IMG/VR virus record: IMGVR_UViG_3300032236_000404
Location: 1-64,000 of that record
Strand: one strand, 5' to 3'
Origin: a virus
Length of the DNA stretch: 64,000 bases
Below the pieces are notes generated by a model. That model saw nothing but the letters and a program-made list of their open reading frames with translations. It did no database searches and had not been told where the DNA came from. Every line of letters starts with the position of its first letter. Positions within the stretch are counted from its first letter, which is position 1. This document shows, one piece after another, positions 3,450-48,449 of the stretch. Both the position numbers and the translations under genes were made by a program.

Positions 3450-3944
3450 TCATTCTCCTTGGCGGTTTTCCGCTTTTAACTGCTTTGGACGCCAAAATAC
3501 ATGATGCCCCACTACAGCAGTCTTATGAACTTTCTTTGTATGTCTATAATATTTACGATTACGAAAACTCAAAGCACCATTGCTCAGGTCATATGTCTTG
3601 CCTGATAATACTAATGTGGCGATTTGTTGACTAGTTTCCCATCGTTTACCGTCTGGTAATTTACGTTTTCTACAGGTCCAACCAAATTGGCATTTGTTGG
3701 CGTCCACCTGATGTACCACTTTACATATTGTTTGTGGATAAATTCCACTTTGGGTACGATTTAAAATCACATGTCCTACAGCAATTTTGCCTTCACGTGA
3801 TTCTGATCCCGATTCATAGTAGATAGCCTCTGCTAAACACTTATGATCTTGAGTAGTTGCATTTACTACTATTTTTCCTTCTGCTGTTGCACAACCTACT
3901 AATGCTAAAGATGCGACAACTGCTGTCGTTGTTATAATATTCAA
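3450..3944 (-). CDS. SleB-type cell wall hydrolase, probable lipoprotein
   Basis: The domain (about 30-150) matches the Hydrolase_2/SleB family: CLAEAIYYES, then GKIAVGHVILNR, then CQFGWTC. The conserved Glu of AIYYE is the likely catalytic acid. The N-terminus is hydrophobic and ends in L-V-G-C, a textbook lipobox, so the enzyme is probably membrane-anchored. I place the start at a TTG (3942-3944) because it has GGAG at good distance. An ATG at 3984-3986 would give a more typical positively charged n-region, but its binding site is too close and it lies inside the tmRNA 3' hairpin. The gene directly follows the tmRNA and is coupled to the second hydrolase. Confidence 0.8.
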   Translation of the reverse strand: MNIITTTAVVASLALVGCATAEGKIVVNATTQDHKCLAEAIYYESGSESREGKIAVGHVILNRTQSGIYPQTICKVVHQVDANKCQFGWTCRKRKLPDGKRWETSQQIATLVLSGKTYDLSNGALSFRNRKYYRHTKKVHKTAVVGHHVFWRPKQLKAENRQGE

Positions 3945-3961
3945 TACACTCTCCGTTTTAG

Positions 3962-4320
3962 AATAGGGTTGCCAAGCCCTAGACATTCTCCTCAAATAAA
4001 AGTGGGGGATTCTGTTTCCAAGCTCCCCCGAGCTCATTTATGCTGCTAGAGCATAAGAAGTAACGAAGTTGTCGTTAGCATCTATAAGTTTTATTGCGTT
4101 AACCGAGCTTTCGCCGGACTATCTACTTCAATCTTTACAGCACCAATCGAAACCTATTTCGCCCCCATCAAAGATACATAGTCCCTTTAACCGCAAGTGT
4201 CCATTAGTCCCTTTCGGGTGTCCTTGAACGATAGGAATCGAACCTATTATGTATCCATGGTGGAGGCGGGGAGATTCGCACTCCCGTCTTGCCGCCTTAT
4301 TCCATTGCTATCAACAATAG
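3962..4320 (-). ncRNA. ssrA: Circularly permuted (two-piece) tmRNA
   Basis: Read on the minus strand, the 3' (acceptor) part comes first. It has a T-arm GGGAG-TGCGAAT-CTCCC, then CGCCTCC, A and an encoded CCA ending at 4258. A 91-nt intervening segment (4167-4257) follows. The 5' part then starts at 4166 with GGGGGCG, which pairs with CGCCTCC over 7 bp (one G-U). It continues with a D-arm-like GGTTTCGATTGGTGC and a tag frame (4038-4079) giving ANDNFVTSYALAA plus stop. A GGGGGA/TCCCCC pseudoknot-type helix and a final AGGG..CCCT hairpin (about 3965-3982) come last. TGCTGT near the 5' end can pair with ATAGCA of the acceptor piece as helix P2. Permuted genes are known in Alphaproteobacteria, some Betaproteobacteria and some cyanobacteria. 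The outer ends are estimates. Confidence 0.9.
4038..4079 (-). other. tmRNA proteolysis-tag reading frame
   Basis: The frame begins at a GCT resume codon and reads ANDNFVTSYALAA, then TAA. The AND(E/N)- opening and -ALAA ending are the hallmarks of trans-translation tags; the hydrophobic end is the ClpXP degron. It lies inside the tmRNA coding piece and is not an independent gene. Confidence 0.9.
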
Positions 4321-4327
4321 TAATATA

Positions 4328-4356
4328 TTTATACTACTTTTGCCCTAGAATGTCAA
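4328..4356 (-). promoter_or_regulatory. Composite sigma70 / late-type promoter of the tmRNA
   Basis: Minus strand TTGACA (4351-4356), 17-nt spacer, TATAAA (4328-4333). The -10 box runs on as TATAAATA (4326-4333), which is also the T4 late consensus. The predicted start at about 4320 fits the 5' end of the acceptor piece. The -35 overlaps the stop codon of the upstream virion gene. Confidence 0.7.
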
Positions 4357-7300
4357 ATCTTATATGGATTTGCACCAGGTCCTGAATCACCCCATACTGC
4401 TGGGTCATTTCTACTGTTGCCTGTATCATAAAGGCTTCTTCTAGTACCAAACTTAGCAAGTAACTTGCTTAATAATCCGCCTGCAATAAGTCCGCCGGTA
4501 ATAGTACGCATAAGTGCTTCTATATTTTGATTGGTTACCTGTGCCAATAACTCTAATACACCAAATATCATTTGATCTGTGTTAAATGGATTTGTATATT
4601 TTGTAGTGGAAATATCCCCATATAATGACTTATTGACAATCTGCATCATAGTTGCAACAAAATATTCATTGTTTAATAAGATTAATCCATTACTCACTAC
4701 TTTACCAAATGGCACAGATTCGCCATTTAGATTAACAATCAACAAGTCAGCACCCATGATCTTATTATCCTGAAGAACAATTGGGTTACCCTGAGCATCA
4801 GTAATTTGATTTGGTGTCAATGCATTTCCGCCGCCAACCACTAATCCATGATTATTCATTGGCAGGATCGTTCCGCTAGGACCACTGGGATTACTTGTGA
4901 TAGTATTATTTGCATTTCCAGGCTGTCCAGGAATAACAGTACCTAATAGATCATTCCCAGTATTAGTGTTTCCAGTTGTTACATTACCGGGAAAAGTTGT
5001 TCCCGGGGAAATGGTATTGCCAATAATATTTGTGCTTGGTACAACTGTACCAGGAGTAGTTACATTACCTGTAATTGGATTGAAAGTTCCATAATTGATA
5101 GTTCTGCCTAAACTGGTAAATGAACCAACTGCTGGTGTTTGATACGATCCAATAACAGTTCCGTTGTCAACAATTAACACATATTTGTCAATGGCATCTT
5201 TTACTACTTGACGTCCAATACCTTCTGCTATTGTAGTAGGAACATCAGTCCACTGAGTATCAACATACAATTCATCTTTCTGAGGAGATGTTAAAGGTAT
5301 GTCATTATAAGGTGTTAATGTTTTATTTCTTACATAATTATAAACATCGCCTGGTTGAGCAGGATATACAGGTGTTGCTCTAAACTGAGGTTTAGCAGGC
5401 ATATTTCCTGTATATAAATTTTGATAAAACTGTTCGGGATTTCTATAATACTGACTCTGTGGCAATTTATATTGGTCAACATTAATGCCTAAATCTGCTA
5501 GTGCGGCAGCATTTCTTGCTTGACGCATAACATATTTTATCGAATCGCCATATAGATCGTTACTGGCTACACGCTCAATATATTCTGCTGGTTGTCCATA
5601 TCCAGTTTGTAGTCCTAATGTTTCTAAACTGTCCATAAACATTTGAGCATCACTAGGTTCAGATGGAGTTTCGTCGAACAAATTAATATTATGAGTATAT
5701 AAATTATTTGCTTCTCTAACTAATTGAGCACAACTTGCATTATATGCAACTGTTAATTTTTGTATATGATCTTGTAATGCAGGATCAGTTGACGCTAATA
5801 GTGCTGACTGTTGTGCTTCAATCAGCGGAACAAAAGTTAATACTGCATCGTCGAGAGAACTAAAAGTTCCAACTCCAGGAACTGTAATACTTGCTGCTAC
5901 AGATGGCACGCCGTTTGCATCATCGCCTGGAGTTCCAACATCTGTGTATTTTCCATTTAGAGTATCGGTTAATTTAAGAGTTAAATCTTTTAGTGTTGCT
6001 GCATCAGGATGATTCATGATATATTCAGTAGAAGAAGTAATTACTGGAATAGTATCTGTATGTACGTAACCAGCAGCAGTACCAATAAAATCTGCCATTG
6101 TTTGTTCGCCAAACGTGCCACCACCATAGCCATAAACACCCATTAAGTTTTGACCTACTTGAGTCACAGTGTCACTAGTAACAGTACTGATATGATTTAA
6201 ATCAGTTCCAGTTTCAATCTTACTAAATGCCATACCAATGGCTCTCATATTTGTATCAGTGTTAATTCCAATAATTGAGAATTGTATACCCAATTCTCTA
6301 AAATTATGCACTGGAAGATAAGTTTTACTAGTGGGCATCATAACTTGTAGATTAGTAAGATCTCCCAATGAAGTGATATCAGTAGTCATATTAAATGCAG
6401 ATTTAATAAATGATATTGTTTCAGGATCATTTAAGTTTGATAATGCTTTTTGAGATAGCCCATCAAATAACGGATTGTTGATCCCTGCTACAGGTAGTTT
6501 CAATTCTAATAATTGTTGAGTTAAACCTGTATGTTCGCCCAATCCTTTATCTAGTATTTGTTGGCAAACATACCCAGGTTGCATTAGTCTCATTGGTTCA
6601 CTTGCATTCCAAGTTCCCATTGCAATTAAATCAGCAGAAATTGCAGAAATATTTTGACCTAGAGTAGTGACACTAAATGTCATGGCATCCTGCATATTTT
6701 TGGCTTTTGCACCATAACCACCATTAACAGGACCAAATTTCATTGCCATTGCTTCGCTAATAGCACCTACTACTTCTTTATTCCCACTTACTGACGAAGA
6801 AACAGTACCAATTAGATTAGTAAATTTTAATTGAGCATTTACTTGTACACCGCCACTGTTTAAGTTTGGAAGATTTCCATTAATTGCACCTGCTGCAACT
6901 GAACCCAATACAGATCCTGCTGCATAATTACCAGTCATATTACCAACATATGAACTAATAGCCCCTGATAGACCACCAGCAATTGCAAACTGCATAGCAG
7001 CGCCTTTAGGAGCATTACTTCCCATAGAACCTAATGCTGAGGTTAATCCATTAATTGCGGCTGATGCAATTTGAGGTGGCATAACTCCACTAAGTGCTGG
7101 AATCAAATTACCGCCCATACTGCTTAATGCACCAAATGCTGCACCTGTTAGTGCTTGAACTGGACTTTTTCCAGCGACTATTGCACCTAATGCACCGCCT
7201 AATGTCTGCCCTACTATTTGTCCTGCTGCTCCGCCTAAATCATATCCCAATGCATTACCAAATGCACCTGCTGCTGATCCAAGACCTGCACCCAATGCAC

Positions 7301-7994
7301 CCTGTATGCCACCACCACTTAATAGTGCCATGCCCGCACTCATTGCAGCATTAGCAGCAACGCCGCCAAGATTTTGCATTAGTCCAGCCATTCCTAACAT
7401 CTTAGGAATATCTAAGCCACCGCCCATACAACCAGCGCCGCCGGGTGCTCCTGCTACTGCACCTGCTGCACCACCGGCGCCTGCGGCGGCACCCCCTGCT
7501 CCTGTTCCAGATCCACCTGCACCATCACCAGTTGCACCACCTGGTGCTGCATTAGCATCAGGTGGATTTGGATTAGTTCCGCCATCACCTCTAGCACCAA
7601 CGTCATAAATTCCTCCAACGTGCCGATCTGCGGTTAGATCTACATTGCTGACTTCAACCGAAGTGCCATTACCTGAGTGTACGATTGCAGTTCCGTCAGG
7701 ATTAAATCCTGTAATAACACCCACGTGACCCGTAGTACCAGAACTATAAGGAGTAAAATATACAGTATCGCCAACTTGTGCTTGTGCAGGGCTGACAGAA
7801 TTTCCAAAATCTTTATAACTAACTGCCAAGGTATTAGCATCAGGGGTATTAATGCCATTTGCTTTTAATACCGCAGTTGTTGTTTCAGCACATATAAACC
7901 CAGGATGATAAGCAACACCTTGAGAAGTAATAAACTGCTGTAACTGTGCAGGACTATAACCTTGTATTTGTTTCCAGGTATCAGCAACTGCCAT
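4353..7994 (-). CDS. Giant virion protein with N-terminal NlpC/P60-like peptidase and Gly-zipper
   Basis: 1213 aa. Residues 1-130 form a Cys-peptidase domain: C35 in GFICAET, G-H90-V-G-V-I, and a second His at 106 in VHSGNG. Gly/Ala/Pro linkers (about 140-195) lead to glycine-zipper hydrophobic segments (about 205-385), able to insert in or cross a membrane. A long soluble part and an Asn/Thr/Pro-rich stretch (about 960-1060) follow. A last Gly-rich hydrophobic helix (about 1165-1185) ends the protein. The gene lies 3 nt after a structural gene and two after the PAAR spike tip, so I infer a baseplate or tail-lumen protein that opens the cell wall and membrane during injection. The gp5 tail lysozyme role is a plausible equivalent, not shown. 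Confidence 0.75.
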   Translation of the reverse strand: MAVADTWKQIQGYSPAQLQQFITSQGVAYHPGFICAETTTAVLKANGINTPDANTLAVSYKDFGNSVSPAQAQVGDTVYFTPYSSGTTGHVGVITGFNPDGTAIVHSGNGTSVEVSNVDLTADRHVGGIYDVGARGDGGTNPNPPDANAAPGGATGDGAGGSGTGAGGAAAGAGGAAGAVAGAPGGAGCMGGGLDIPKMLGMAGLMQNLGGVAANAAMSAGMALLSGGGIQGALGAGLGSAAGAFGNALGYDLGGAAGQIVGQTLGGALGAIVAGKSPVQALTGAAFGALSSMGGNLIPALSGVMPPQIASAAINGLTSALGSMGSNAPKGAAMQFAIAGGLSGAISSYVGNMTGNYAAGSVLGSVAAGAINGNLPNLNSGGVQVNAQLKFTNLIGTVSSSVSGNKEVVGAISEAMAMKFGPVNGGYGAKAKNMQDAMTFSVTTLGQNISAISADLIAMGTWNASEPMRLMQPGYVCQQILDKGLGEHTGLTQQLLELKLPVAGINNPLFDGLSQKALSNLNDPETISFIKSAFNMTTDITSLGDLTNLQVMMPTSKTYLPVHNFRELGIQFSIIGINTDTNMRAIGMAFSKIETGTDLNHISTVTSDTVTQVGQNLMGVYGYGGGTFGEQTMADFIGTAAGYVHTDTIPVITSSTEYIMNHPDAATLKDLTLKLTDTLNGKYTDVGTPGDDANGVPSVAASITVPGVGTFSSLDDAVLTFVPLIEAQQSALLASTDPALQDHIQKLTVAYNASCAQLVREANNLYTHNINLFDETPSEPSDAQMFMDSLETLGLQTGYGQPAEYIERVASNDLYGDSIKYVMRQARNAAALADLGINVDQYKLPQSQYYRNPEQFYQNLYTGNMPAKPQFRATPVYPAQPGDVYNYVRNKTLTPYNDIPLTSPQKDELYVDTQWTDVPTTIAEGIGRQVVKDAIDKYVLIVDNGTVIGSYQTPAVGSFTSLGRTINYGTFNPITGNVTTPGTVVPSTNIIGNTISPGTTFPGNVTTGNTNTGNDLLGTVIPGQPGNANNTITSNPSGPSGTILPMNNHGLVVGGGNALTPNQITDAQGNPIVLQDNKIMGADLLIVNLNGESVPFGKVVSNGLILLNNEYFVATMMQIVNKSLYGDISTTKYTNPFNTDQMIFGVLELLAQVTNQNIEALMRTITGGLIAGGLLSKLLAKFGTRRSLYDTGNSRNDPAVWGDSGPGANPYKI

Positions 7995-11574: not shown

Positions 11575-13875
11575 TCAAATTGTACACGACTCACAGGCTT
11601 CCTGACTGGGCAATTCTGCTGGTAAATCTTCCATAAATTTAACAACATTAATTTCACCTTGTCCATCATAAGTGTTGAAATAGTACAAAGTTTTGCCGCC
11701 CAACTTATAATGTAGTAGCAATAACTTTAACATTTCGCTCATTGGTAACTTTTCGTCAGGATAGAATTGCGGATTATATGAAGTGTTAACTGATATAGCC
11801 TGATCAATATATTTCTGCAATACGGCACAAATCTTAATATAACCTTCTGGAGACTTTTGATCCCAAAGTAATTCATACTTGTTCTTAAGTTTCTTAAATT
11901 CAGGTACAACCTGCTTAAGAACACCATGCTTGCTCTGCTTAATTGAAATGTAACTACGTGGTGGTTCAATACCGTTAGTAGCATTAGCAATCTGTGCTGA
12001 TGTTTCTGCGGGCATCAGTGCCATTAGTGTACTATTACGAATGCCATACTTCTTGGACATACCACGTAGTCCATTCCAATCCATGCGCTCACTGTAAGCA
12101 ACAACTTCATCAATGTCCTGTTTGCGAGTATCAATTGGCATAATACCCTGTGCATACTTTGTTTCATGTGACTTGGGACAAGCACCTTTTTCCATTGCAA
12201 GTTCAACACTGGCCTTAATGAGATAATAACTCATTGCTTCCATATATTCATCTAACTTAGGAAGGCTACTGTCATCACTATACTTGAAGTCATTCTTAGC
12301 AAGCCAATAAGCAAGATTAATGATTCCAACGCCAAGAGGACGACGGTTCATTGTACTAATCTTAGCAGCAGGAACTGGATAATCTTGATAATCAAGAAGT
12401 TCATCTAATGCTCGAACTGCAAGTTTACATGGACGTTCAAAATCACTAGGCTTATTAATATTACCCCAGTTAATTGCCGACAGTGTGCAAAGACTAATCT
12501 CACCTTCTTCGTCAAAGATATGAGTAAGCGGCTTGGTTGGCAGTGCGATTTCACAACAGAGATTGCTTTGCTTGATTGGAGCAACATCTTCGAGGAATGC
12601 ACCATGACTATTTGTATTGTCAACATTCATTAGATATACACGCCCGGTATCCTTACGCTCAGTCATAAACGCAGAGAATAAATCTATTGCTGGGATTGAC
12701 TTCTTTCTAATCTTGGCATTACGCTCGTACTTTTCATAGAGGTCCCTAAATTTATCGGTATTACTATAAAAAGCGTCATAAAGATCAGGAACATCATTAG
12801 GGCTAAAAAGAGTAATAGTTGATCCCGCAAGTAACCTTTCATACATCACCTTGTTAAACTGTACACCATAATCCATATGACGGACACGGGTGTCTTCAGT
12901 TCCTTTGTTGTTCTTCAACACAAGGAGGTCTTCGACTTCCAAATGCCAAAGTGGATAGTATAGTGTAGCCGCACCATTACGGACACCACCTTGACTGCAT
13001 GATCTAACTGCTGATTGAAACATCTTATAAAATGGAATAACACCAGTATGACTTGTATCGCCATTACGCACAGGACTTCCCAACGCACGAATGCGGCCTG
13101 CGCCGATACCAATGCCAGCCTTCTGACTAACATACTTAACGATAGCAGATGTTGTAGCGTTGATTGAATCTAGCGAGTCGTCTGTTTCGATGAGTACACA
13201 GGAACTAAACTGGCGCTGCGGTGTACGAAGACCTGCCATAATAGGTGTAGGAAGACTAATGTCATGCTTACTAATACACTCATAATAATCCTTTACCCAG
13301 TTAAGACGTGTTGACTTATCATACTTTGAAAATAGTACTGCTGCAATCAGCATATAACATACTTGCGGAGTTTCCATGATTTGCCCAGTGACACGATTCT
13401 GAACTAGGTACTTGCCGCGCAGTTGTTCCATAGCAACATATGTCAAACTCATATCACGCTCGTGATCAATAAACGAGTTGATTTTATCCCATTCCTGTTC
13501 AGTATATGATTCTAATAGTTCAGCATCATACCAACCTTGTGCAACATTACGCTTAACAAGTTCTAAGATATGGCATGGAGTATAATCATTGTACACTTCC
13601 TTACGCAAATGGTAATTTACAAGCCTACCTGCAACATATTGATAGTTGGGATTATCCTCGCTAATAAGATCAGCGGCAGCCTTAATCATCGTTTCTTGAA
13701 TATCAGCAGTTTTGATATCATTATAGAATTGAATTTGACTGCGGATTTCAACTTCACTCACACTGACATTCTTAAGGCCTTCGGTAGCCCAATATACAAC
13801 TTTGTGAAGCTTTTCAACATCTAAAGGTTCTTTGTGGCCATCTCTCTTGATGACCATAATACGATTTGCGTTCAT
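11575..13875 (-). CDS. nrdA: Ribonucleotide reductase class Ia, alpha subunit
   Basis: 766 aa, full length. The N-terminal ATP-cone region begins MVIKRDGHKEPLDVEKLHK. The active-site cysteine in SSCVLIETDDSL, the N-L-C-C-E-I triad (Asn, radical Cys, Glu) and MPAETSAQIANATNGIEP are all present. So is a C-terminal C-E-S-C pair that relays electrons from glutaredoxin. The protein reads very like enterobacterial NrdA by eye. The intact cone suggests dATP inhibition may be kept. First gene of the nrdA-nrdB-grx block. Confidence 0.95.
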   Translation of the reverse strand: MNANRIMVIKRDGHKEPLDVEKLHKVVYWATEGLKNVSVSEVEIRSQIQFYNDIKTADIQETMIKAAADLISEDNPNYQYVAGRLVNYHLRKEVYNDYTPCHILELVKRNVAQGWYDAELLESYTEQEWDKINSFIDHERDMSLTYVAMEQLRGKYLVQNRVTGQIMETPQVCYMLIAAVLFSKYDKSTRLNWVKDYYECISKHDISLPTPIMAGLRTPQRQFSSCVLIETDDSLDSINATTSAIVKYVSQKAGIGIGAGRIRALGSPVRNGDTSHTGVIPFYKMFQSAVRSCSQGGVRNGAATLYYPLWHLEVEDLLVLKNNKGTEDTRVRHMDYGVQFNKVMYERLLAGSTITLFSPNDVPDLYDAFYSNTDKFRDLYEKYERNAKIRKKSIPAIDLFSAFMTERKDTGRVYLMNVDNTNSHGAFLEDVAPIKQSNLCCEIALPTKPLTHIFDEEGEISLCTLSAINWGNINKPSDFERPCKLAVRALDELLDYQDYPVPAAKISTMNRRPLGVGIINLAYWLAKNDFKYSDDSSLPKLDEYMEAMSYYLIKASVELAMEKGACPKSHETKYAQGIMPIDTRKQDIDEVVAYSERMDWNGLRGMSKKYGIRNSTLMALMPAETSAQIANATNGIEPPRSYISIKQSKHGVLKQVVPEFKKLKNKYELLWDQKSPEGYIKICAVLQKYIDQAISVNTSYNPQFYPDEKLPMSEMLKLLLLHYKLGGKTLYYFNTYDGQGEINVVKFMEDLPAELPSQEACESCTI

Positions 13876-46187: not shown

Positions 46188-46427
46188 TTAACGTGGGGCG
46201 GCGCCTGAATAAGTTTGCTTAATAATATTAAGACCATTTTCAATCTGCTGAACTAACTGAAGAATCTGAGGTGCTCTTCCGCCTTGTATAACTGCATGTA
46301 AATCTTCTGCTGATTTTAAAATATTGCCAGCAATCATAGTTGGGTCTGCACCTGGTGCTTCCATTGTTGGCTCTTCAAATTCACTTAGACCGGCTAATTT
46401 TCTCATTAAGTTCAATGTATCACTCAT
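46188..46427 (-). CDS. Small head-region protein with RKLAGL motif, 79 aa
   Basis: Begins SDTLNLMRKLAGLSEFEE, nearly the same as the C-terminal end LALMKKLAGLK of the upstream 669-aa protein and the start KLKKLAGIKTE of the gene at 52.8 kb. The remainder is one helical region (ILKSAEDLHAVIQGG, ILQLVQQIENGLNII). The shared KLAG tag suggests a common partner, possibly the prohead core. Inference. Confidence 0.65.
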   Translation of the reverse strand: MSDTLNLMRKLAGLSEFEEPTMEAPGADPTMIAGNILKSAEDLHAVIQGGRAPQILQLVQQIENGLNIIKQTYSGAAPR

Positions 46428-46439
46428 AATATGTTTTCC

Positions 46440-48449
46440 TTATTTTAGACCGGCTAATTTTTTCATAAGAGCCAAACTGTCATTTATTGGGTTTACTTCA
46501 CGACCTTCTTCTACACTATCATCATACTTGTTGTACTTGTCTCTGATCTTGTCTAAGTCTTTCCCCTCTTTACCTGCATTAGCAAGAGCCTGCATGCCTT
46601 CTTTACCGTATTTTTCATAACCTTTAGCAGCACGACTCATTTCAGCTTCTTTAACAGAATATGACTTACCATCAACTTCAAATTCATCTTGATGAGATGC
46701 TTTTGCCTTTGCTAATGCGCCTGAGAATTCGTTACCTTCTTCCATATCATCTTCTACTTCAGAAACAACTTCTTCACCTTGATTTGCTCTTGCTGCTACT
46801 CTTTCAGCAACTTTAGTCATCGGATGTCTAGCAGAAACTCTCTCTGCTACACGATCTGTTGCAGTAGTGCCATCTGAACGACCAGCAACTCTTTCTGCTA
46901 CACGCTCTGCTGGAGTAGTTGTAACTTTTCTAGTAGATGCACGTTCTCTAATTCTATCCATTGGGGTTTCTTCGATATCAACTTCATTTACTTTCATCTG
47001 ACCCATTCCTTCTTCATCTGCGCCAATGTGGTCCATCATATCTGCTTCTTCGCCTTCACCAATATCACTGACCCAGTCTTCAAACTGTTCGCTTTCATCT
47101 TTGACTTTGCCGTATAAATCTTTTTTCTTGCCAAATGCCGCAACACGAAGTTCTTTACCCATTTCTGGATTGCTATGAATTTTCTTAAGATCATCCTGAT
47201 AACGCTTTGCCAACTGAAGAGCAATTTGCATGTCTTCTCTTGAAGCCTTGCCATCTTCTATATCTTGCCCGATTTGGCTTGCCCAATTTGCAACTTCGCT
47301 ATCTTCTAAGCCAATACGATCAGCCACTGTACCCAATACACGACGTAGCAATGCTTTACCATCTGTGTACTTGCTACTGGCAATTAATCTATCTTCTGAT
47401 GGATCGTCCTTGAGTACCATTTTCCAATTTGGATCTTTTAACTTAGCAGCAACAGAGCCTGCTGATTCTTTGAGTGCTTCCATAATATTGCCCTTATATT
47501 GCTTATATGCCTTTGCGGCGCTGTTGATCCAATTATCTAAATTCTCATTATAAACCTGTTGAACAAACATTGGCTTAATATCATCAATGTCGTCCTGCTC
47601 TGCCAAAATCTTACTAAGATCTTCTATATTTTCATCAAAGCGACTATTGTTAGCCATACGAAACAAACTACGTTTAATACTCTCTTTAATTGCTGCTGCG
47701 GCCTGAATAACATTTACTGCGTCTTCGCTTTCAAATGTTTTGCGACGTGTAGCACTGGCAAAACGACGAAGATTCATCATTTCATTCACAGCATCACTGA
47801 TAAGTCTGCCACTATTGTCATAAGGTGTGCCACCTCTGCCTACATGATTTGCCATTGCCTTAGCAGCCATTACACTCTTAAATGGTAATAAAAAGCGTTC
47901 GCCTGATTCATTCACAAGGAAAATTCTGTCAACACGCAACAGTCTATTGTTGGTATTTTCTTCCATACGTTCATTGTGAACAACATGAATTTTTACGTTG
48001 TTTAGGTTGCCTTCGCTGACCTTACCACGACGTGCCCAATAAACTTTGCTTTCGCCAATTTGGGACTTTTCTTTATTTTGGTTTGACACGAATTTTAAAT
48101 CCTCATGAGTAAGAATATCTTTTGAGATGTCTCTAACATCTAACCCCAGCAAATGTCTTTTTGCAAACTTTCTTATTTCTTTTAAGAAAGCATACCACTG
48201 TTTTTTCTCATCGTCATCCATATATTTTGTAATATCTTGACTGAAGTAGATCTTTAAATTTTCATTATCGATCAAACTGGCAGTAATATTGCCAAATTTA
48301 ATTTCATCTAATTCAAAATCAAAATTAAAAAATCTTGCATCATGAGGATTAGTCGTTGAACTACTGTCCTCGTCGCCCATTTTAATCTTTGGGAAGCGGT
48401 TTCTTAGTTTGAAAAATAAGTCGTTTGCTGCTTGTTCTATGCCGGCCAT
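46440..48449 (-). CDS. Large putative internal virion protein, 669 aa
   Basis: The N-terminal 200 residues are mixed alpha/beta, then mostly helical. From about 505 to 575 there are four loose copies of (T/A)xRVAERV(A/S)xR. An acidic stretch follows (VSEVEDDMEEGNE). A compact module FEVDGKSYSVKEAEMSRAAKGYEKYGKEG near the C-terminus comes before LALMKKLAGLK. Many [IL]-x-E sites suit prohead processing. No enzyme motif. Gene order and tags suggest a head protein. Confidence 0.7.
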   Translation of the reverse strand: MAGIEQAANDLFFKLRNRFPKIKMGDEDSSSTTNPHDARFFNFDFELDEIKFGNITASLIDNENLKIYFSQDITKYMDDDEKKQWYAFLKEIRKFAKRHLLGLDVRDISKDILTHEDLKFVSNQNKEKSQIGESKVYWARRGKVSEGNLNNVKIHVVHNERMEENTNNRLLRVDRIFLVNESGERFLLPFKSVMAAKAMANHVGRGGTPYDNSGRLISDAVNEMMNLRRFASATRRKTFESEDAVNVIQAAAAIKESIKRSLFRMANNSRFDENIEDLSKILAEQDDIDDIKPMFVQQVYNENLDNWINSAAKAYKQYKGNIMEALKESAGSVAAKLKDPNWKMVLKDDPSEDRLIASSKYTDGKALLRRVLGTVADRIGLEDSEVANWASQIGQDIEDGKASREDMQIALQLAKRYQDDLKKIHSNPEMGKELRVAAFGKKKDLYGKVKDESEQFEDWVSDIGEGEEADMMDHIGADEEGMGQMKVNEVDIEETPMDRIRERASTRKVTTTPAERVAERVAGRSDGTTATDRVAERVSARHPMTKVAERVAARANQGEEVVSEVEDDMEEGNEFSGALAKAKASHQDEFEVDGKSYSVKEAEMSRAAKGYEKYGKEGMQALANAGKEGKDLDKIRDKYNKYDDSVEEGREVNPINDSLALMKKLAGLK

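Follow-up and report, generated by a model that had tools for sequence, protein, structure and literature searches.

In the analysed window, a stretch of 64,000 nucleotides from a viral record of 67,448 bases, the minus strand carries at 4321-4001 a complete tmRNA gene of the alpha type, in circularly permuted form. Comparison with other viral contigs indicates that the interior of its intervening sequence (IVS) is exchanged between tmRNA genes as a cassette, the closing stem being kept by compensatory change. The data as a whole are best explained by a working alpha-type permuted tmRNA of a large myophage, which would act in ribosome rescue during infection and carries an exchangeable IVS cassette (probability about 0.85).

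The gene was confirmed by three predictions. On the minus strand, the alpha_tmRNA model RF01849 matched 4360-4001 over its full length (106.3 bits, E 5.2e-28), the tmRNA_permuted model RF04321 matched 4321-4038 (111.9 bits), and ARAGORN independently called a permuted tmRNA at 3947-4350 with the tag ANDNFVTSYALAA. Their agreement bears out the sequence-only reading, which had proposed a phage-borne circularly permuted tmRNA at 3962-4320 and had named an Rfam covariance-model search over this interval as its check. The place was right, but the strand was left unstated and the interval overshot the low end by about 40 nt. The refined borders are about 4321 to 4001, which leaves 3962-4000 to spacer and to the region where the next gene starts. 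The internal order was also read correctly: the acceptor half with its encoded CCA precedes the mRNA-like half, and both fit the covariance model (Rfam, ARAGORN). The 7-bp acceptor stem postulated between the halves is formed by CGCCUCC with GGGGGCG, and its third pair is G-U (G3-U70), the alanine identity pair. The tag is complete as claimed and ends in a hydrophobic proteolysis signal followed by the stop codon (Table 1).

Table 1. Features of the permuted tmRNA gene and its surroundings in the window
Feature	Position	Strand	Basis or remark
Upstream 1213-aa protein gene	4353-7994	-	syntenic in relatives
Sigma70-type promoter	4328-4356	-	TTGACA (4356-4351), 17-nt spacer, TATAAA (4333-4328)
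3' (acceptor) piece	4258-4321	-	Rfam
T-arm	4285-4269	-	in 3' piece
Acceptor 3' strand CGCCUCC	4268-4262	-	in 3' piece
Encoded ACCA	4261-4258	-	CCA itself 4260-4258
IVS, 91 nt, predicted to be excised	4167-4257	-	Rfam; IVS comparison
IVS closing stem, 5' strand GAUACAUA	4248-4255	-	IVS end pairing
Cassette core: T-arm-like hairpin AUAGG-UUCGAUU-CCUAU, then conserved CGUUCAAGGACACCCGAAAGGGACUAAUGGACACUUGCGG	4191-4247	-	common to L051 and L165-L168
IVS closing stem, 3' strand UAUGUAUC	4173-4180	-	IVS end pairing
5' (mRNA-like) piece	4001-4166	-	Rfam
Acceptor 5' strand GGGGGCG	4166-4160	-	start of 5' piece
Tag reading frame ANDNFVTSYALAA and UAA stop	4038-4079	-	ARAGORN
3' terminal hairpin GGGGGAGCUUGGAAACAGAAUCCCCC	4004-4029	-	Rfam
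Downstream lipoprotein-like cell wall hydrolase (PF07486)	3450-3944	-	likely UUG start 3944, GGAG upstream

Conservation of the T-stem and acceptor stem was analysed in seven distinct sequences, representing viral contigs (the window, L022, L162 and L051), two phage isolates (Phosso and CcrRogue) and one bacterial plasmid (the Microvirga copy). Both stems were 100% paired and 6 of the 12 pairs were changed on both sides, the covariation among relatives by which the acceptor stem was to be judged. When the partners were slid by 1-3 columns in the same alignment, pairing was 48-62%. G3-U70 was present in all seven. A further contig, L020, is identical to the window across the aligned tmRNA stretch. 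Relatives with changed acceptors were picked independently of the acceptor sequence: L022 by way of a neighbouring protein, L162 from a match to a pattern lying downstream of the acceptor and Phosso through a whole-genome model search.

TTGACA-N17-TATAAA recurs unchanged in sequence and spacing in L020, L022, L161 and L162, and in the window and these four relatives TTGACA-N17-TATAAATA stands at a constant distance from the tmRNA. A reading of TATAAATA as a T4-type late promoter was rejected on two grounds: all five sequences have TTGACA 17 nt upstream, and the window shows no enrichment of the motif. The conservation at fixed spacing favours transcription of the tmRNA by a host-type sigma70 polymerase. 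At a threshold of 11 of 12 matches or better, 11 sites of sigma70 type occur on the minus strand of the window, which is mainly coding, as compared with 4 on the other strand and 1-3 in randomised sequence. The position of the tmRNA between the 1213-aa protein gene and the hydrolase gene is kept in L020/L021 and L022, while L161 ends inside the tmRNA with the upstream genes kept. The hydrolase likely starts at the UUG and has a lipoprotein-like signal sequence; an ATG at 3986 is a possible alternative. The listed open reading frame, 3450-4037, starts at 4037, abutting the tag stop, and shows homology from near residue 27.

The contig represents one fragment of a jumbo-like myophage, with genes for a terminase, a tail sheath, helicases and a ribonucleotide reductase. 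The terminase shares 53% identity with those of PA5oct-like Pseudomonas jumbo phages and of Sinorhizobium phage Phosso; the top matches are the Pseudomonas phages, at an identity about equal to that of Phosso. As Phosso has a permuted tmRNA, the terminase relation makes an alphaproteobacterial host plausible. The suggestion in the sequence-only reading that the gene points to the host group, mainly Alphaproteobacteria, thus survives as plausible but unproven, the Pseudomonas jumbo phages being equally near. Model searches found no permuted tmRNA in PA5oct, the one Pseudomonas jumbo phage examined, or in Agrobacterium phage Atu_ph07. No SmpB gene was found in the 67-kb contig, and function of the tmRNA therefore needs SmpB of the host.

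The gene very likely gives a functional two-piece tmRNA which uses host SmpB and alanyl-tRNA synthetase. We infer its transcription, processing, charging and role in rescue, as well as any function of the cassette. Host-type RNA polymerase would transcribe the gene from its own sigma70-type promoter. In the precursor the acceptor stem would close over the IVS, the ends of which would form a second stem, and removal of the IVS by host tRNA-processing enzymes would leave the two-piece tmRNA. Host alanyl-tRNA synthetase would charge it via G3-U70, and SmpB would bring it to stalled ribosomes, where ANDNFVTSYALAA would be added as a proteolysis tag. The phage tmRNA would most likely keep ribosomes in use during infection.

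In phages, tmRNA has been described in 402 of 18,146 genomes, with two-piece forms making up 53 of 133 unique structures, mostly marine or aquatic (PMC9004378). A curated database holds 79 phage tmRNA sequences (PMC11915505), and a tmRNA is reported in the Sinorhizobium jumbo phage AP-J-162 (PMC11242549). A narrow DNA pattern with the acceptor sequence fixed found at least 120 viral-contig stretches. With these counts, the view that phage tmRNAs are uncommon has to be tempered. The gene itself adds one more and is not a new type, because phage permuted tmRNAs are already published.

Methylophilales phage Melnitz (MZ577097) likewise bears a permuted two-piece tmRNA (RF04321, 113 bits), with an IVS closed by a stem ending in UGAU. 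According to PMC9004378, an early (sigma70) promoter immediately precedes its tmRNA, an arrangement resembling that in the window. Melnitz differs in belonging to another phage group and in having a glutamine riboswitch at 46398-46446. As this element is downstream of the tmRNA and outside the IVS, it was excluded as an IVS cassette; no glutamine riboswitch was found by Rfam at 3900-4500 of the window at E up to 10. Phosso shares the related terminase, an alpha-type permuted tmRNA and a tag ending in ALAA, but has an IVS of 410 nt and another gene neighbourhood. The Phosso tmRNA (PV764938.1, L155, 349596-350198; tag frame ANDNVSTKVALAA) is not annotated in its record. Caulobacter phage CcrRogue (JX100814.1, L002) also has a permuted tmRNA at 102546-102864 (RF04321, 88 bits), which is absent from the annotated features displayed for that interval.

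Among bacteria, the alpha_tmRNA (RF01849) of the Microvirga plasmid NZ_CP069356 agrees with the window in architecture, tag type and an IVS stem ending in GUGAU, but its tag sequence, IVS interior and promoter context are unlike. No close bacterial relative of the window's tmRNA was found. Matches to the 5' end in TA06/Omnitrophota MAGs were rejected as permuted tmRNAs and are probably one-piece, because RF04321 finds none in those genomes. The permuted tmRNA of a nominally archaeal MAG has a tRNA-Ala within its IVS (PMC11915505). It is similar in that the IVS carries an extra RNA, but this is a whole tRNA gene in one sequence, whereas the cassettes form an exchangeable family.

The IVS comparisons draw mostly on a single pattern scan with the acceptor sequence fixed and a gap of 75-105 nt, and concern the matches listed. 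The contigs are metagenome-derived and may include chimeric assemblies, and viral status was checked for part of the IMG/VR contigs. In 76 distinct IVSs among these matches the ends pair in register in 97.2% of cells, as compared with 30-66% in the slid control, and 25 pair types each occur in 3 or more sequences; 65 of the 76 IVSs end in UGAU. The closing stem is probably a general trait of the permuted type, since the bacterial Microvirga copy has the same stem.

The interiors behave differently. Among 93 non-redundant genes from the matches listed, interior identity is two-peaked, with 64 pairs at 72% or more (mean 89%) and nearly all others at 30-60%. Of 31 gene pairs among those matches with bodies at least 85% identical (bases 60-165 of the 5' piece), 28 have unrelated IVS interiors. 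Conversely, for pairs of the same IVS family the interior is more conserved than the body in 61 of 64, again among the matches listed. The IVS interior is the lowest spot in both a 2.7-kb alignment at 95.8% identity (L029 and L095) and a 4.2-kb alignment at 91% (L055 and L099), with the partners of each pair coming from different metagenome sets. Window and L022, L020 and L161 are 96-100% identical on the T-arm side and 41-44% in the IVS interior. In the opposite direction, interiors are 100% identical in L025/L027 (body stretches 70% and 37%), 93% in L030/L066 (58% and 45%) and 98% in L167/L168 (55% and 54%), and the contigs within each pair share almost no other similarity. Rfam assigns L167 to the alpha type and L168 to the beta type. 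Judged from these alignments, phage tmRNA genes swap the IVS interior as a cassette, and compensatory change preserves the closing stem. The exchange may not be specific to phages, because Microvirga is the one bacterial permuted tmRNA seen. No description of IVS exchange was found in open-licence literature on two-piece, permuted or intervening tmRNA segments, and this cassette-like swapping of the excised segment is the new part.

Five other contigs carry the window's own interior, the genes being of alpha or beta type and about 60% identical in their bodies. Its core has 45 of 60 alignment columns invariant in six copies, five of them distinct; the T-arm-like stem shows two compensated pairs, and the other proposed core helices are invariant. 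A 19-base word from the core occurs in five viral-contig stretches of the whole collection, all five inside tmRNA IVSs. A core model search gave no further convincing copy in 137 sources, and searches of phage, plasmid and E. coli records gave no match to the core. Identity of the IVS with a known Rfam RNA was rejected, nothing besides tmRNA and chance appearing at E up to 10. A Streptomyces phage match to the IVS hairpin was also discarded, covering a 22-nt T-arm-like piece near tRNA genes, with the rest unlike. One carrier of the cassette, L051, has a tmRNA at 13124-13551 with an unusually long tag, ANSNEWYNLGEYSFETEAGLAVA.

Small open reading frames were seen in some IVSs. Those of L040 and L096, with a Shine-Dalgarno motif, would encode hydrophobic peptides of 23 and 28 aa wholly inside the IVS. 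Such frames were dropped as a signal, being no more frequent than in shuffles (2 vs 1.6). Matches of a 41-aa IVS peptide of Melnitz were limited to the four Melnitz records.

What the interiors do, if anything, was weighed against these patterns. We hold at somewhat below even odds that the interior is neutral filler, for which any compact hairpin serves, exchanged without consequence by recombination in conserved flanks. The many unrelated interiors that are tolerated (45 singletons in 93 genes among the matches listed) and the homology for exchange offered by the conserved T-arm and 5'-piece flanks agree with this. The invariance of the core across both gene types, at bodies only about 60% identical, speaks against it, and the excess of interior over body conservation would be odd for discarded neutral RNA unless transfer was recent. 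Alternatively, the IVS would be a cargo slot, from which processing would free a putative phage small RNA with sequence-specific function, diversifying selection driving exchange. The conserved core, the compensatory changes in its T-arm-like stem, the two-peaked identity with families common to unrelated contigs among the matches listed, and the confinement of the 19-mer in viral contigs to tmRNA IVSs are in its favour, but the core helices apart from the T-arm-like one do not vary. This reading is tentative and rather unlikely, and it is likewise unlikely that the putative small RNAs freed by tmRNA processing target the host or rival phages.

Cassettes as selfish mini-elements inserting only into tmRNA IVSs would account for L167 and L168, whose IVSs agree at 90 of 91 nt while their tmRNA bodies are of different type. 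We find this improbable: in the searches with the 19-base word and the core model no copy of the window's core was found outside IVSs, and we know of no enzyme for cassette insertion. A decoy inhibiting host trans-translation, for which the tag-less form of phage DS6A mentioned by Nawrocki et al. as inhibiting endogenous tmRNA is a precedent (PMC11915505), or a decaying gene, is highly improbable, as the gene retains an intact and conserved tag, stop codon, CCA, G3-U70, acceptor stem and promoter.

With the working permuted tmRNA as the preferred reading, the phage two-piece tmRNAs gain a jumbo-like lineage in which the gene has a promoter of its own and a gene context that are both conserved. 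If true, the exchange would make the IVS a hypervariable, exchangeable site within an otherwise conserved housekeeping RNA, and if the cassette pattern holds in isolates, the segment that a permuted RNA gene discards would be worth attention.
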